The translations under genes were made by a program, and so were the position numbers. Of a DNA stretch of 64,000 nucleotides, positions 38,614-62,797 are shown piece after piece. The notes below the pieces were generated by a model. It was not told the origin of the DNA. It worked only from the letters and a program-made list of their open reading frames with translations, and did not search any database. Source of the DNA: an uncultured Acidobacteriota bacterium. GTDB taxonomy: Bacteria; Acidobacteriota; Terriglobia; Terriglobales; Acidobacteriaceae. Within the stretch, counting starts at the first letter, position 1; the number at the start of each line of letters is the position of its first letter. The stretch spans positions 1 through 64,000 of the forward strand of contig CAINND010000114.1 in NCBI GenBank assembly GCA_903851035.1. The letters run 5' to 3'.

Positions 38614-39489
38614 CTACCGGCCAACAACCTTCAGCTTTTCACCATCCAGCAAACGGCGATACTGTGCCCTTGCGTGCACCGCCCATGGGCCCTGGCAATC
38701 CAGCTTGAGATAGGCGCGCCAGTGGTGCATCGCCTGCCGCGGCTGCCGGGCCCGTTCGTAGGCCAGCGCCAGGTTATAGTGTGCGTCGGCGTAGGTGGGC
38801 GCCAGGTGCAGAGCGCTCTTGTAGGCCGCTATCGCCTCTTCCAGGCGCTGTGTCTCGTCCAGCACGTTGCCCAGGTCAAAGTAGGCCAGCGCGTAGCGTG
38901 GATCGCTCTCTATGGCCCGGCGATAGTGTGTCTCCGCCAGTTCGTAGTCGCTCTGGTTGTAGTAAAGCGTGCCCAGGTTGATGTGCGCCGGCGCGTAGTT
39001 GTCGTCCTGCTTCAGCACCTTCTTGTAACAGGCAATGGCCTCATCGGCCGTCTCGGGATCTTCTTCCAGGGCCACGCCGCGGGCAAACAGCGCGGCAACC
39101 GTCTGCGGAGCCGGCATCGGGCGGAATCCCTTGTCCGTCTCCAACACCTTGCCGCTGTCGTCAAAGTCCATCACGAACTGGCCGTCAATCGGGTCCAGCG
39201 CGCGCCCCTCGGTGCGGAAGGCCACCCGCGAGCCAATGGAGAACGAGCCTGCTTCCAGCAATGGGTTCTCCATCCCGGCCACGCGCTCCTGCATAGCGTG
39301 GAGCGACGCCAGGATGGTCGCGCTCTTCACGCGCTTGGCGCGCAGGTCGCGCACCTTCTTTACCTGTAGGAGGTCGAAAAAGGAGAAGCTGTCGCCGACG
39401 GCTATCAGTCCCGCGCGCTGCCAGCCGCTCAACTGCCGGGCCGTGATGCGCAGGATCCTCAGTACATCCGTTCGTTGAAAGTCAGTCAC
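38614..39489 (-). CDS. MerR-type helix-turn-helix protein fused to TPR repeats
   Basis: The 291-residue protein begins with a MerR-like winged helix (residues about 6-70: VLRILRITARQLSGWQRAGLI ... FSFFDLLQVKKVRDLRAK). A linker of about 75 residues follows. About three or four tetratricopeptide repeats span roughly residues 145-275 (YAPAHINLGTLYYNQSDYELAETHYRRAIE, YALAYFDLGNVLDETQRLEEAI, YADAHYNLALAYERA). The fusion suggests a regulator whose DNA binding is controlled by a protein partner. It is upstream of the acyl-CoA dehydrogenase gene but separated by about 110 bp. Target genes are unknown. Confidence 0.85.
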   Translation of the reverse strand: MTDFQRTDVLRILRITARQLSGWQRAGLIAVGDSFSFFDLLQVKKVRDLRAKRVKSATILASLHAMQERVAGMENPLLEAGSFSIGSRVAFRTEGRALDPIDGQFVMDFDDSGKVLETDKGFRPMPAPQTVAALFARGVALEEDPETADEAIACYKKVLKQDDNYAPAHINLGTLYYNQSDYELAETHYRRAIESDPRYALAYFDLGNVLDETQRLEEAIAAYKSALHLAPTYADAHYNLALAYERARQPRQAMHHWRAYLKLDCQGPWAVHARAQYRRLLDGEKLKVVGR

Positions 39490-39633
39490 GGTTTGTGCCG
39501 GGCTCCAATTTCTCGGCCATTATCGCCAGCACGCGACGGTGAAAGCAAGCGGAAACTCCACACTCCCCTGCTTAAGCTCATGCAAATATGCACTTTGCAC
39601 AACTGGCTAGGCACTTTCACCACCCACCGACTC

Positions 39634-39663
39634 TTTACACTCGCCTTGCCCACCCTTTACTAT
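39634..39663 (+). promoter_or_regulatory. Promoter of tRNA-Thr
   Basis: TTTACA (39634-39639) and TACTAT (39658-39663) with an 18-base spacer end 13 bases before the tRNA 5' end. Confidence 0.65.
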
Positions 39664-39676
39664 GGATTCAGGTCAT

Positions 39677-39752
39677 GCCGACGTAGCTCAGTTGGTAGAG
39701 CAGCCGATTCGTAATCGGCAGGTCACCAGTTCAAGTCTGGTCGTCGGCTCCA
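39677..39752 (+). tRNA. tRNA-Thr (CGT)
   Basis: Acceptor GCCGACG pairs with CGTCGGC. The anticodon stem-loop CCGAT-TCGTAAT-CGG gives anticodon CGT, T-arm ACCAG-TTCAAGT-CTGGT is complete, and TCCA ends the gene with encoded CCA. Confidence 0.95.
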
Positions 39753-39766
39753 GAAGATTTCCAGCG

Positions 39767-39800
39767 CGCCTCGTCCATCGGACGGGGCGTTTCGCTTTTG
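39767..39800 (+). terminator. Rho-independent terminator after tRNA-Thr
   Basis: GCCTCGTCC / GGACGGGGC stem (one G-T pair, 3-nt loop) followed by GTTTCGCTTTT. Confidence 0.7.
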
Positions 39801-39911
39801 CCTTCATCACCGCCAACAATTCTCTCTGCCTTCGCATTTCGCTCACGCATCGAAGATCACTCAAGCGCATTGTTTCTTGTGCGACTCTCACAAAAAACCT
39901 CCGCGCAAACG

Positions 39912-39943
39912 AAAAGGCCGCCCGGCAACTGGGCGACCTTTCC
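39912..39943 (-). terminator. Probable bidirectional terminator hairpin
   Basis: AAAGGTCGCCC / GGGCGGCCTTTT pairs with one mismatch around a short loop. On the minus strand it is followed by CTTTTCGTTT, and on the plus strand by CCTTTCCTTC. It could end minus-strand transcription from the gene at 40160. Confidence 0.5.
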
Positions 39944-40090
39944 TTCAAGGGAGAATAGTTCCAACGGAGGCTAGACCGTCAAAACTTTCTGAACAAATAC
40001 TATGAGCCTTGAAAACCGAGTGTCAAGCGATTTTATAGAATTAAATGTCTTTATTATCAATAACTTAACTTTTAGCCCAAGATTCTCTCT

Positions 40091-40107
40091 GTGACATAAT
40101 TTGTCAC
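40091..40107. repeat. Inverted repeat GTGACA-N5-TGTCAC in AT-rich spacer
   Basis: A perfect 6-bp inverted repeat with a 5-base AT-rich centre, typical in size for a dimeric regulator site. It resembles but does not match the CRP consensus (TGTGA-N6-TCACA). The nearest plus-strand gene starts more than 1.3 kb away, so its target is unclear. Confidence 0.4.
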
Positions 40108-40159
40108 TCGACGGCCTCTCCGACCCCTAAATGGTTGCCTGAAATCAGCTTAGGTCCTA

Positions 40160-41299
40160 TCAGTGACGATCCAGGTCGAGCCGAATCATCTTGCCATCGT
40201 CCGCGATTTCGCCCTTCTTTTTGCCCCACAAACGGGGCATAACCACCCGGCCAAAGCCAAACATCAGTCCCAGGCCCACCGAAATGAGGAAGAGAACGAA
40301 GGCCAGCGTCAGTCCGGCGACCACCAATCCGCCGATGTTGTCGCGCTTGGCCTGCCCCGTGTCCTGGTTCCAGGTAACGCTGGCATCGTAGTTAATGGAG
40401 GCGAGAACGCGCTCGGCATCACGCCTTGAGATCTGTCCGCGCACCAGTGCCACGATCGGTCCCGTGCGCTTTACCACCATGGTCGCGCCCGTTGCGGGCT
40501 GCAACTGCTGGTAGGCCGCCAGCCGCTCAATGGCGATGATGTGCGTGGGGTATTCGGTCAGCAGAATCTCTGCCGAAGCTGGGCCGTCTCCGTTCAACCG
40601 CGCCCACAGCAGGCGGGGATTCTTCTCAAAGTTGATGAGCCCGGCCGGTATATCAAGATTCAGCGCCGCATAGGCCGCCGCGCCGATGACAAAGTGCGCC
40701 GACTCCGGTACCAGTTGCTTGCGTGGCAGCCGTCCGGGCAGCGTGGGCAGCTCCGATGCAGGCCCCGCGGCCTTGGGCAGCATGCCGGCCAGCTCGCGCA
40801 TCTGCGCGCCGCTCATCGCCGTCAGCTGTGTAAACTGCGCGTCCACCAGCAGGTTGCCCTGCAGGAACATCACTCGCTCATTCAGCGAGGCCGCCAGTTG
40901 CCCGATGTCTTCCTTCTGCATGCGCGGCTGCCGATAGTAGGTGAATGCCGCATAGGCCCCTTCGGCGTCGGCAAAGCGCGCCGCGCGCAAGGTCAGGGTG
41001 CGCTGTCCGTCCTTAGGATTCGCAGAGTTTGTGTCGATGACTTTGTAGGTGGCAATCTCGAAGTCGGCAAAGCGGTCTTCCGCCAGCACCGCTGCGCTGG
41101 TGGCGTCAAGCTGGCGCGGATCGCTGCCCTTCTGCGCCGTGCCCGTCTGCTCCCACCCGGCAAAGGCCGCGGGCAGAATCGACGCCTGCGCCGCCGGCTT
41201 CTCCGTAGCGGCTTTGGGCTGCGCGGCAAAGGCCGGAATGCAGAGTGCGGCCAGCGCCAGCACACAACCCGCATTGCGTAGAAAAGCTCTCATCATCAC
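40160..41299 (-). CDS. Membrane-anchored secreted protein (possibly DUF6599 family)
   Basis: The 379-residue product has a signal peptide (CVLALAALCIPAFA). An extracytoplasmic domain starts near SILPAAFAGWEQTGTAQKGSDP and includes FADAEGAYAAFTYYRQPRM. The C-terminal membrane segment (IGGLVVAGLTLAFVLFLISVGLGLMFGFG) has a short basic tail. The pattern matches an uncharacterised acidobacterial family that I believe is labelled DUF6599; this label is from memory. No catalytic motif is seen. ATGs at 41299, 41296 and 41293 are equally possible starts. Confidence 0.65.
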   Translation of the reverse strand: MMMRAFLRNAGCVLALAALCIPAFAAQPKAATEKPAAQASILPAAFAGWEQTGTAQKGSDPRQLDATSAAVLAEDRFADFEIATYKVIDTNSANPKDGQRTLTLRAARFADAEGAYAAFTYYRQPRMQKEDIGQLAASLNERVMFLQGNLLVDAQFTQLTAMSGAQMRELAGMLPKAAGPASELPTLPGRLPRKQLVPESAHFVIGAAAYAALNLDIPAGLINFEKNPRLLWARLNGDGPASAEILLTEYPTHIIAIERLAAYQQLQPATGATMVVKRTGPIVALVRGQISRRDAERVLASINYDASVTWNQDTGQAKRDNIGGLVVAGLTLAFVLFLISVGLGLMFGFGRVVMPRLWGKKKGEIADDGKMIRLDLDRH

Positions 41300-60419: not shown

Positions 60420-60630
60420 GCCATCACCTCGATTGCAGTATGGCGCTCCCTGGCCGCGCCGTCATCTAGGGTAGCGCAGGCCACGGCCCTCGGATAGAGC
60501 GCAGCCCCCCTCGGATGCACGGCAACCGGCGATTGCGGTATTCTTATTAGTGAACGGAGCGATAGTTTCTCCCGCCCGGGAGAGATCGGCCAGCCAGCAC
60601 TTTGGGCGCCGCGCTCCGGTTAGTAAAGCT

Positions 60631-61296
60631 ATGTTTTCTACGCTCGATACCAAATTCAATCTGCGTCGCCAGTGGCCCTTTGGGACCGCGCTGCTGACCC
60701 AGTGCGCCCTTCTGGCCGTCCTGCTTTTGCTGGGCGGAGCGGGCGGCGGCCGCCGTCATGCGCACATCGCGCGTGCCTCGGCGCATCCGCACGACACCAC
60801 CGAAATCTACTTCCAGCCGCCCTCGCCGCAGGCTCCTCCGCCACCGGAGAGCCCGGCCCCGGAACTGGCCCAGCAAACTCCGCCGCCTGCCAAGCCCGCG
60901 CCGCCCGCACAGGACACCAGCAGCAATGCCACCGATGCCGCCGACGGCCACGATGCCAATGGCGACCTGGTCAGCCAGTTGTGGGAGCTCGATGCCGAGC
61001 CGGAGACGATGGTCGTCATGCAGCACACGGTGCGCACGGCGCAGCCCGTCTTTACTCCGGAGCCGCCCATCCTGCGCCACAACACTCCGCCGAGCGTGCG
61101 CGGCAAAGACCTTGTGCTGGAGGTGCTGATCGCTCCCGACGGCACAATCGTAACGGCCCAGGTGATGCAGGAAGTGGACTACAAGGTGGAGGCCGCCATC
61201 GTGGAAACCCTGCGCCAGTGGCGCTTTGACCCCGCACAGTTCGCCGGACACAGCGTCCCCTCGCGCCGCCAGTTGAGCTTCCACTTTCCGGGATAA
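60631..61296 (+). CDS. TonB-family protein (energy transducer-like)
   Basis: The 221-residue product has a single N-terminal membrane segment (FGTALLTQCALLAVLLLLGGAG). A long Pro-rich periplasmic linker follows (residues about 60-100, SPQAPPPPESPAPELAQQ). The C-terminal domain resembles the TonB fold (DLVLEVLIAPDGTIVTAQVMQEVDYKVEAAIVETLRQWRFDP). It may transmit proton-motive force to an outer-membrane transporter; no receptor or exbBD genes are near. The ATG at 60631 gives a short N-terminus before the membrane segment. Confidence 0.82.
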   Translation: MFSTLDTKFNLRRQWPFGTALLTQCALLAVLLLLGGAGGGRRHAHIARASAHPHDTTEIYFQPPSPQAPPPPESPAPELAQQTPPPAKPAPPAQDTSSNATDAADGHDANGDLVSQLWELDAEPETMVVMQHTVRTAQPVFTPEPPILRHNTPPSVRGKDLVLEVLIAPDGTIVTAQVMQEVDYKVEAAIVETLRQWRFDPAQFAGHSVPSRRQLSFHFPG

Positions 61297-61297
61297 C

Positions 61298-61392
61298 CCC
61301 GCCGCGCCCTCAAGCGCAAACTCTGCCGCACGCCAAAAACCTCCCATATGGGAGGTTCTTTCTTCTGAAATTTTGCGGAAGGAAATGGTCGG
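61298..61392. repeat. Direct repeat, left copy (islet boundary)
   Basis: This 95-bp sequence is about 94% identical to 62631-62727. It contains the palindrome AACCTCCCATATGGGAGGTT and ends with TGGTCGG, the reverse complement of the tRNA-Pro 3' end. At the right copy the same sequence adjoins the tRNA gene, whereas here the similarity stops after TGGTCGG. Confidence 0.88.
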
Positions 61393-61465
61393 CCTTAGCG
61401 GACGATTTTAGAACTTTCTGGCTACTGGCGGGATAAAGCGAGCCTCCCGGCTCACTAGAAAAGAG

Positions 61466-61486
61466 CCCCACTCGAGCCAAAAGGAG
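61466..61486. repeat. Islet inverted repeat, left copy
   Basis: CCCCACTCGAGCCAAAAGGAG is the reverse complement of 62584-62603 with one C/T difference and one missing base. The pair lies inside the direct repeats. Confidence 0.7.
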
Positions 61487-61516
61487 AGGTGTTAGACCAG
61501 CCGCTCTATTTATCAC

Positions 61517-61550
61517 CCACCCTCTTGCACAGGTGCCGCGACAAGGGTGG
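61517..61550. repeat. REP-like hairpin
   Basis: CCACCCTCTTG can pair with CAAGGGTGG (one bulged C) around a 14-nt loop. It is a small palindromic element of the kind dispersed in acidobacterial intergenic regions (family assignment from memory). Confidence 0.5.
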
Positions 61551-61643
61551 GGCATCACCGGTGAACTGGACTGGAAAGGGTGGGCCAGCCCCCCAAAATG
61601 TTACTGAATGAAGTTGGTGCTAATATGTTGGCGGATAACACAA

Positions 61644-62441
61644 ATGACAATCGACAGATGGTTAGCTTTAATTGGGGTTTTACTTGGTGCTGCTGGCTGT
61701 GTACTTGCGGTATGGTTTTATCGTCGGTCAGAGAAGAAGCGTATTCCTACGTTTGTCGTGCACCCAAATAAACGACTCTTAGCTCACCCTGCTCTCGCGC
61801 AAGTTGAGTTAATGTCGATTCAACACAACAACCGGAATGTCGGCAACAATGGCATCACAGAATTGCAAATTCACTTTTGGAATAGTGGCAATTTACCTTT
61901 ACTACAAAGTGACATACTTGAGCAGTTCGCAATCCATATTCCAGCCACAATCCTTTACTTTGAAGTTATAAAGCTGAGTCGCTCTGTCGTTCACTTACAA
62001 TTGTCGCGCTCCACAAAATCGGATGAGGAATTAATTCTCTCCTTTACCGTACTCGAACCGGGTGATGGTGGAACGTTGCGAATTGTATATGACGGTCTAC
62101 CCGAGGAACCCATCGCGTTCACTGGGGCGTGTGTTGGTGCGATGAGGCCCACCGTATTACCATCAGACCCCATGTACTTCAGTTCGATATCGAACCGGAT
62201 TTACAATGCTTTTGAGATTCCGATCATGGTTCTTTTGATCACGGGAGTTGTTTTTCCTACTGTCTTCGGAATTACATGGGTAATTCGTCGACTATTTGGT
62301 GAACGAGTATTGGTCATTGTTTCGCTCGTAGTAATGTCTTTGCTTCTCATATGGGTAGTCACCACTGTGATCTGGAATCAGTACAAGCGGATCACCGCGA
62401 AATATGTTCCCCCTGATGTCAGGACTGAATCTCAGAGATAA
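61644..62441 (+). CDS. AT-rich islet membrane protein of unknown function
   Basis: The 265-residue product has an N-terminal membrane segment (WLALIGVLLGAAGCVLAVWF). A basic patch YRRSEKKRIPTFVV and a soluble beta-rich domain of about 150 residues follow (HFWNSGNLPLLQSDIL, then LSFTVLEPGDGGTLRIVYDG). Two C-terminal membrane segments (IPIMVLLITGVVFPTVFG and VLVIVSLVVMSLLLIWVV) complete it. Base composition is visibly richer in A+T than the rest of the window. It is the only gene in the islet next to tRNA-Pro. No family is recognised; the layout resembles orphan membrane proteins found in mobile or defence-rich islands (recollection, not a match). The ATG at 61644 is chosen so that the first membrane segment follows a short N-terminus. 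Confidence 0.65.
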   Translation: MTIDRWLALIGVLLGAAGCVLAVWFYRRSEKKRIPTFVVHPNKRLLAHPALAQVELMSIQHNNRNVGNNGITELQIHFWNSGNLPLLQSDILEQFAIHIPATILYFEVIKLSRSVVHLQLSRSTKSDEELILSFTVLEPGDGGTLRIVYDGLPEEPIAFTGACVGAMRPTVLPSDPMYFSSISNRIYNAFEIPIMVLLITGVVFPTVFGITWVIRRLFGERVLVIVSLVVMSLLLIWVVTTVIWNQYKRITAKYVPPDVRTESQR

Positions 62442-62453
62442 ATTTCAGGGCGG

Positions 62454-62498
62454 GTGGCCCACATCTGAAACCTCCAAGATGATGGTGCCCCATGTCTG
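62454..62498. repeat. Two GTGsCCCAyrTCTG motifs near islet right end
   Basis: GTGGCCCACATCTG (62454-62467) and GTGCCCCATGTCTG (62485-62498) are two variants of one 14-bp motif spaced 31 bases apart. Confidence 0.5.
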
Positions 62499-62583
62499 CC
62501 TTCTGTTGGCAAACGTGGGTAATCACACTATCGAAAACTGTCAGCATGGATAGACGTTACTCGGCGGGCGTCCCATCCAAGCC

Positions 62584-62603
62584 CTCTTTTGGCTTGAGTG
62601 GGG
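62584..62603. repeat. Islet inverted repeat, right copy
   Basis: CTCTTTTGGCTTGAGTGGGG is the inverted partner of 61466-61486. Confidence 0.7.
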
Positions 62604-62630
62604 GACGTTCCTCGCAAACAGTGTAGGCAC

Positions 62631-62727
62631 CCCGCCGTGCACCCTCAAGCGCAAACTCCGCTGCACGCCAAAAACCTCCCATATGGGAGGCTCTTTCTTC
62701 TGAAATTTTGCGGAAGGAAATGGTCGG
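62631..62727. repeat. Direct repeat, right copy (at tRNA-Pro 3' end)
   Basis: This 97-bp sequence matches 61298-61392 with four or five substitutions and one 2-bp indel. It includes the last seven bases of tRNA-Pro and the tRNA terminator. Confidence 0.88.
62675..62698 (-). terminator. Terminator of tRNA-Pro (inside right direct repeat)
   Basis: On the minus strand GCCTCCCATATGGGAGGTTTTT contains the palindrome CCTCCCATATGGGAGG followed by a T run, about 25-45 bases past the tRNA 3' end. A copy with the same palindrome exists in the left repeat. Confidence 0.75.
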
Positions 62728-62797
62728 GGCGACAGGATTCGAACCTGCGACCCCCTGCGCCCAAGGCAGGTGCGCTACCAGGCTGCGCTACGCCCCG
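62721..62797 (-). tRNA. tRNA-Pro (TGG)
   Basis: On the minus strand CGGGGCG pairs with CGCCCCG. The D-arm is TAGCGCAGCCTGGTAGCGCA, the anticodon stem-loop CCTGC-CTTGGGC-GCAGG gives anticodon TGG, and the T-arm is GCAGG-TTCGAAT-CCTGT. The 3' end is ACCA with CCA encoded. Confidence 0.95.

Follow-up and report, generated by a model that had tools for sequence, protein, structure and literature searches.

What placed a short AT-rich islet against the 3' end of a tRNA-Pro gene in an uncultured member of the Acidobacteriaceae? The islet lies in what we call the window, the whole stretch of 64,000 nucleotides that was analysed (contig CAINND010000114.1 of assembly GCA_903851035.1, positions 1 to 64,000, forward strand). 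A first-pass annotation, made from the letters alone, described direct repeats of about 95 bp enclosing AT-rich DNA with internal inverted repeats, one orphan membrane protein and no integrase; it read this geometry as a site-specific insertion at a tRNA gene, left either by a decayed or non-autonomous element or by a transposon-like unit. The anatomy is as described (Table 1). Self-comparison of the islet gives an ungapped direct repeat of 89 nt at 96% identity, and a gapped alignment of its two ends covers 97 aligned bases, also at 96%. Both copies terminate in TGGTCGG, hereafter the core, which is the reverse complement of the tRNA-Pro(TGG) 3' end, CCGACCA; the right copy continues into the tRNA gene, which is intact and keeps its own 3' end, CCA included, and the left copy continues into CCTTAGCGGACGATTTTAGAACTTTC (61393-61418). 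The 1335-bp unit has a GC content of 0.487, against 0.617 across the window, and holds a single credible ORF, of 277 aa, and inverted repeats of 27 nt that are 81% complementary.

Table 1. Features at the tRNA-Pro islet, in window coordinates
Feature	Position	Strand	Basis or remark
TonB-like protein gene, left flank	60550..61296	+	ORF; relatives within genus at other loci
Left direct-repeat copy (terminator hairpin and core); tRNA-distal junction, chromosomal side	61304..61392	+	
Left 7-bp core TGGTCGG	61386..61392	+	core consensus from 89 sites
attP arm CCTTAGCGGACGATTTTAGAACTTT	61393..61417	+	25 bp, predicted
Inserted unit, 1335 bp including one core copy	61393..62727	.	
Inverted-repeat arm 1, dispersed palindromic repeat type	61457..61483	+	
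Dispersed intergenic repeat; copies on own-genome contigs C37, C9 and C19	61516..61593	+	
Cargo ORF, 277 aa	61608..62441	+	ORF list
Dispersed intergenic repeat; copies on C94 and in relatives	62449..62520	+	
Cassette 3' end common to contig C2:40091-40254 (92%)	62563..62727	+	
Inverted-repeat arm 2, dispersed	62586..62612	+	
Right direct-repeat copy	62639..62727	+	
Right core, the tRNA-Pro 3' terminus with CCA	62721..62727	+	
tRNA-Pro (TGG), intact	62721..62797	-	

Two features had escaped the first-pass annotation. One is that the end of the islet matches contig C2 of the same genome over 165 bp, so that the common end exceeds the direct repeat. The other is that the bases after the left core recur, on C2 and near tRNA-Pro in two other genera. 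In a search with the islet, 32-33 bases from the left core onward were found again in genomes G014 and G017, at 1.7 kb and 10 kb, respectively, from a tRNA-Pro on the same contig; the search otherwise returned tRNA genes and repeats. We refer to the 25 bp that follow the core as the arm. Allowing up to three mismatches, the arm pattern is present in 72 of 398 genomes of the family, and the reversed pattern, run as a control on the same set, gave 0 in every genome listed. Viral contigs yielded 0 matches to the arm patterns.

We compared 64 arm sites, from 34 of the 72 arm genomes, with tRNA-Pro 3' ends found by pattern, counting both genes and displaced pieces of at least 24 nt. A listed tRNA-Pro end is present on the contig for 32 of the 64 sites, and in 30 of these 32 the nearest end lies ahead of the arm on the same strand, at 83 bp to 420 kb (binomial P about 2e-16 against one in four, with sites treated as independent although some stand in one array). 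For one of the two exceptions, in G049, another end does lie ahead; the remaining 32 sites are on contigs without a listed tRNA-Pro end. Arms stand downstream of all three tRNA-Pro genes of genome G093 in the same orientation (four at TGG, three at CGG and two at GGG), the set of three occupying two stretches of contig C4 up to 34 kb from the tRNA. Two further arms in that genome (L101) have no tRNA within the 18 kb examined, and the arm on C2 has none within the 12 kb examined. The arm is a conserved motif on the element side that adjoins the repeated end and is absent from the RNA gene. Together, the core, the arm and the orientation of the arm toward tRNA-Pro support the original reading of a site-specific insertion at the tRNA 3' end.

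Searches of the arm loci with recombinases pointed to a large serine recombinase of 494 aa, with Resolvase, Recombinase and zinc-ribbon domains, whose C-terminus crosses the core into the antisense tRNA. All 13 copies or relics of this subfamily that were found, in 12 genomes, have the same coding motif exactly 48 nt ahead of TGGTCGG; other serine recombinases (23-32% identical) are left out of this count. The junctions involve tRNA-Pro ends or pieces of the TGG, CGG and GGG types. At six loci the recombinase frame is in phase with the core; a seventh, L233, was printed in another frame. Two full islands, of 14 kb (G049) and 12 kb (G051), give an open frame when their ends are joined; it runs on through the core, as ...E-W-S-A-L-x-D-D-F-R-T. 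The recombinase gene overlaps the attachment site in these relatives, not in the islet itself, which encodes no recombinase: none of about 50 recombinases matched it by tblastn, in agreement with the first-pass annotation, which had noted no integrase. The window's genome does hold two relics, one of 65 aa next to tRNA-Pro(CGG), in which a stop immediately precedes the core, the other of 34 aa beside a GGG-type tRNA-Pro piece on contig C97, and neither this genome nor G093 gives a match to the Recombinase domain. Copies also occur in G347 and, in partial form, in G248, two genomes in which no arm is recognised at three mismatches. Relatives in plasmid and phage records are all below 60% identity (about 24-30% in the rows listed), and the method used found none in viral contigs. 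Judged by sequence, the responsible enzyme appears to be a large serine recombinase and not a tyrosine integrase.

The arm itself has a coding-like pattern. We collected 63 distinct arms with an exact core from 89 sites, some of them Patescibacterial; 46 of the 63 encode WSALxDDFRT[FL], and 74 of 123 arm substitutions are synonymous, against 26% expected. This pattern (WSALxDDFRTF) would be explained by the recombinase frame running through the core into the arm, as in the two joined islands, and the synonymous bias could partly reflect bases that are read by the enzyme. By analogy with those two islands, the arm of the islet would encode the recombinase tail ALADDFRTF in the circle. In serine integrases, according to passages of PMC3783163, the distance from the centre to the zinc-ribbon motif is 5 bp shorter in attB than in attP. 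The same 5-bp offset is found here, for one half-site: counted from the start of the core, GAAC is at positions 20-23 in the T arm of the tRNA and at 25-28 in the arm. A shift test on that half-site only, with 63 arms against 38 distinct tRNA ends, scores best, of the shifts tried, at 5 for the distal arm (positions 20-31, 22-31 and 24-31), whereas the middle arm (14-24) fits best at a shift of 3.

We delimited 32 arm-bounded units in 27 loci and searched them by tblastn with the same set of about 50 recombinases. Their sizes run from 93 bp to 14.2 kb, with a median of 1.4 kb. The two largest hold an intact large serine recombinase, two others hold relics and 28, the islet included, match none of the set; no tyrosine integrase was detected in any of the 32, matches being confined to the four units with a serine recombinase or its relic. 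With 1335 bp and one gene, the islet is an ordinary member of this set, and the suggestion that it is non-autonomous fits its place among the 28. Ten proteins from other units were compared with Pfam; four have no match and six fall in the families TonB C-terminus, ABC transporter, GntR, trypsin-like, Sel1 and IS200-like transposase. The TonB C-terminal domain protein belongs to a unit that adjoins tRNA-Pro(TGG) in G093 (L102:5513-5950), and a TonB-like gene, which might conceivably once have been carried by a cassette, also lies to the left of the islet. The trypsin-like cassette protein (L105:4051-5046, G093) matches the PADLOC candidate defence model PDC-S45 (E 1.9e-8).

Most units have ends with little in common. 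For 22 of 30, the best local alignment between the 200-bp ends is of 28 bases or fewer, as expected from the core and chance similarity. More extensive sharing that stops at the core is seen in the window (97 aligned bases), in G014 (103, at 87%), in G325 (48) and in two units of G093 (147 and 98), and longer sharing that does not end at the core is seen at L102 (98, at 90%), L225 (62, at 90%) and L234 (47, at 85%). Five G093 ends of 126-128 bp, which belong to different tRNA-Pro loci, are 95-100% identical, other ends in that genome match over 74-114 bp at 89-92%, and by eye a similar stretch lies immediately downstream of its tRNA-Pro(GGG) gene. The C2 copy of the 165-bp islet end again has an arm after it. 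The repeat of 89-97 bp is not the attachment site, which consists of the 7-bp core and, on its element side, the 25-bp arm; the repeat is best read as a lineage-specific cassette end that carries a terminator hairpin. Its left copy may derive from a neighbouring cassette since lost or from the flank that the tRNA had originally. On C2 itself (39078-40254, L031), two cassette-end copies flank a unit of ~1 kb with an arm, again with no tRNA in 12 kb; the right end of that unit, by eye, stops short of the core and adjoins a response-regulator-like gene.

Could the islet instead have arisen by tandem duplication, or by rearrangement mediated by a terminator-bearing intergenic repeat, with no site-specific insertion? 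The 89-bp repeat does occur elsewhere in the genome, once whole (89%) and once partial, on C2 and away from any tRNA in the 12 kb examined, and dispersed palindromic repeats flank the cargo ORF. However, duplication leaves unexplained the 25-bp arm beside the core, the orientation toward tRNA-Pro in 30 of 32 cases and the recombinase frame, and we give this origin scant credence. A transposon-like unit bounded by inverted repeats, which the first-pass annotation had also entertained, seems to us barely conceivable. The 27-nt inverted repeats do stand on either side of the ORF, but they are internal to the unit and not at its ends; pieces of the right one match many other loci in this and related genomes, and the own-genome matches listed include no whole-unit copy bounded by inverted repeats at a core-less site. 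They have the look of an intergenic repeat scattered over the genome, not of transposon termini. Three stretches of the window, 62560-62607 and the two listed in Table 1, are dispersed palindromic intergenic repeats with copies in the same genome and in relatives. One unit of G093 (L101) encodes the IS200-like Y1 transposase, which might mobilise palindromic intergenic repeats.

Another alternative is a decayed tyrosine-integrase island that targets tRNA-Pro and has the 89-bp repeat as its attachment site. A suitable enzyme exists among relatives: a tyrosine integrase (P0002 type) is present in 49 of the 398 family genomes (E <= 1e-15), and in 11 of 23 scanned loci of this type an intact tRNA-Pro(CGG) follows the integrase stop codon at a distance of a few to about 30 bp. 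The window's own genome, however, has no match at E <= 1e-15. At five or more P0002-type loci, among them L145, L151, L152, L158 and L166, the adjoining tRNA piece is, by eye, about 43-49 nt and not 7 bp, breaking off in or near the anticodon loop in these five; the islet has 7 bp and not the long displaced tRNA fragment of a tyrosine-integrase island. Also against this origin are the ends of the 22 arm-bounded units, with little in common beyond the core, and the arm, which reads in frame from a serine recombinase. We regard a tyrosine-integrase origin as very unlikely.

P0002, whose gene in G018 neighbours both an arm and a tRNA-Pro end, was also considered as the mobiliser of the cassettes and ruled out, since the 43-49-nt tRNA pieces imply a different crossover; moreover, it is not among the matches of the window's genome or of G093. 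Its co-occurrence with the arm is modest: of the 49 genomes with this integrase, 15 also belong to the 72 with an arm, where about 9 would be expected by our own count. Arms directly behind a P0002-type integrase occur in a few genomes (L144, L159 and L160), and we read them as cassettes inserted at the same core. The loci L144-L166 (for example in G018, G252 and G345) make up a second tRNA-Pro system, with a P0002-type integrase by tRNA-Pro(CGG) or by pieces of 43-49 nt. Among 20 integrase loci from the window's genome, G093, G078 and G014, part of a larger list, 14 have tRNA genes, none of them tRNA-Pro; one of the 20, L248, has a tRNA-Pro piece beside a serine-recombinase relic.

We conclude that the islet is, with high probability, a one-gene cassette that lacks an integrase and belongs to a serine-recombinase island family whose attB is the 3' end of tRNA-Pro genes. 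An attP site on a circle, made up of the recombinase 3' end, TGGTCGG and the 25-bp arm, would recombine with an attB made up of downstream DNA, TGGTCGG and the tRNA; insertion of the circle would keep the tRNA intact, with the arm ending up at the junction distal to the tRNA. The recombinase gene of full islands ends across the core, so that its last residues would be encoded by the arm in the circle and by antisense tRNA after integration. Cassettes such as the islet keep only the two ends and a cargo gene and would need a recombinase made elsewhere, and mobilisation in trans is the natural inference from their makeup. Because the recombinase of this genome was found as relics only, the islet is probably stranded there, its mobilisation having presumably ceased. 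What was an unexplained AT-rich islet would thereby join a cassette family that can be recognised in these soil bacteria. Its 32-base signature can serve to find small integrase-less islands that may be missed by island finders based on integrases or on long tRNA fragments, and mobilisation in trans, if it occurs, would make tRNA-Pro loci gene-trading platforms in this family. A broader picture is speculative and, in our estimate, rather unlikely: single-gene cassettes whose 3' ends are specific to a lineage would be piled up and reshuffled in trans at tRNA-Pro genes that serve as fixed platforms, the recombinase tail would alternate between WSALxDDFRTF on the circle and residues from antisense tRNA once integrated, a change that possibly controls directionality, and the whole would be the serine-recombinase counterpart of the integron.

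Neither an empty site nor a circle was seen for the islet locus. Relatives of the tonB-like gene are not beside tRNA-Pro in the stretches examined from the genus, and these contain no clean empty site. tRNA-Pro and a histone-deacetylase-like gene are adjacent in G001 and 5.7 kb apart in G002, and the pair gave no match in the G003 stretch. A comparison of the G325 cassette locus with 60 genomes returned tRNA, right-flank and repeat matches, with no left-flank match outside G325 among the matches listed.

Among the openly licensed papers listed by literature searches, none deals with this tRNA-Pro family. Tycheposons are reportedly cargo elements at tRNA genes, some of them without an integrase of their own; they differ in having a tyrosine recombinase. 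They are also larger, 4-200 kb according to passages of PMC10872708. The closest known kind, as far as passages of PMC3146451 describe them, are the ssrA islands of Dehalococcoides, into which the islet fits as a non-autonomous relative. These are tandem islands with a serine recombinase, DsiB, and a conserved motif beside the repeat; 15 of 31 have no integration module, and the DsiB gene runs into the attachment site, with full function suggested to be reached perhaps only in the circular form (PMC3146451). The likeness extends to a large serine recombinase, an RNA-gene 3' end as target, tandem units many of which have no integration module, a short conserved motif by the repeat and an attachment site overlapped by the recombinase gene; the islet, too, sits at a tRNA 3' end with the RNA end repeated at the far junction, as in islands of the DsiB type. 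In contrast to the islands as portrayed in those passages, the target here is tRNA-Pro of all three types and not tmRNA, the common core has 7 bp and not 20, the units are mostly small (median 1.4 kb) and the arm preserves a peptide of the recombinase tail; the hosts are members of the Acidobacteriaceae and not Dehalococcoides. The overlap of gene and attachment site, known in Dehalococcoides, is seen here in another host group, and it makes testable whether integration alters the tail of the enzyme and thereby the direction of the reaction.

Two other systems share parts of this organisation. At tRNA-Lys in Methylophilaceae, additive islands of 330 bp to 42 kb, for most of which no function is known, resemble the present units in being preceded by varying numbers of tRNA 3'-end repeats, but they have a 20-bp tRNA repeat, and the passages of PMC10872708 to hand mention no serine recombinase. 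Integrons, as summarised in passages of PMC8618304, carry tandem cassettes, mostly of unknown function, with recombination sites that are conserved within a chromosomal integron; the 3' ends of our cassettes are likewise alike within a genome, but here the recombinase is of the serine and not the tyrosine type, and a tRNA gene is the anchor.

The single gene of the islet is described as a membrane-protein gene. The predicted model of its product has one long N-terminal and two long C-terminal helices, at low confidence (mean pLDDT 55). Searches of Pfam and NCBIfam gave nothing above the curated cut-off and PADLOC gave no match; PHROGs gave one weak match, to a holin (E 0.004), over residues 10-46, which are a predicted helix. 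Distant homologues were found in three other genomes of the 398, and the stretches examined around them contain no TGGTCGG core.

The arm may also reach beyond this family. An exact 17-mer of the arm, by which it was found in Patescibacteria, gave 25 stretches, where roughly 30 would be expected by chance in a collection of this size on our own estimate. Many of the matches belong to one repeat family, with seven in G414, a genome of 0.6 Mb (weakest E 0.001). No serine recombinase matching the family query was found in the Patescibacterial stretches examined, and four other serine recombinases do not share a tail of the WSALxDDFRT type. The tyrosine integrases of four Patescibacteria genomes are not beside the listed repeat copies, and a fifth genome has none. 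The repeat, of ~100 nt (L099, L194 and others), stands after genes and terminators and encodes WLGLADDFRTLKWEEVFGYPEGALKQMRELL-like peptides or WLGLADDFRTL..., and it is possibly a serine-recombinase tail left on cassettes. If the same peptide-coding arm is present in Patescibacteria, the system, or the recombinase tail, would be ancient and would cross phyla. Sequence and frame suggest a relation to the arm of the window's family, with which the Patescibacterial repeat has the same core codons.
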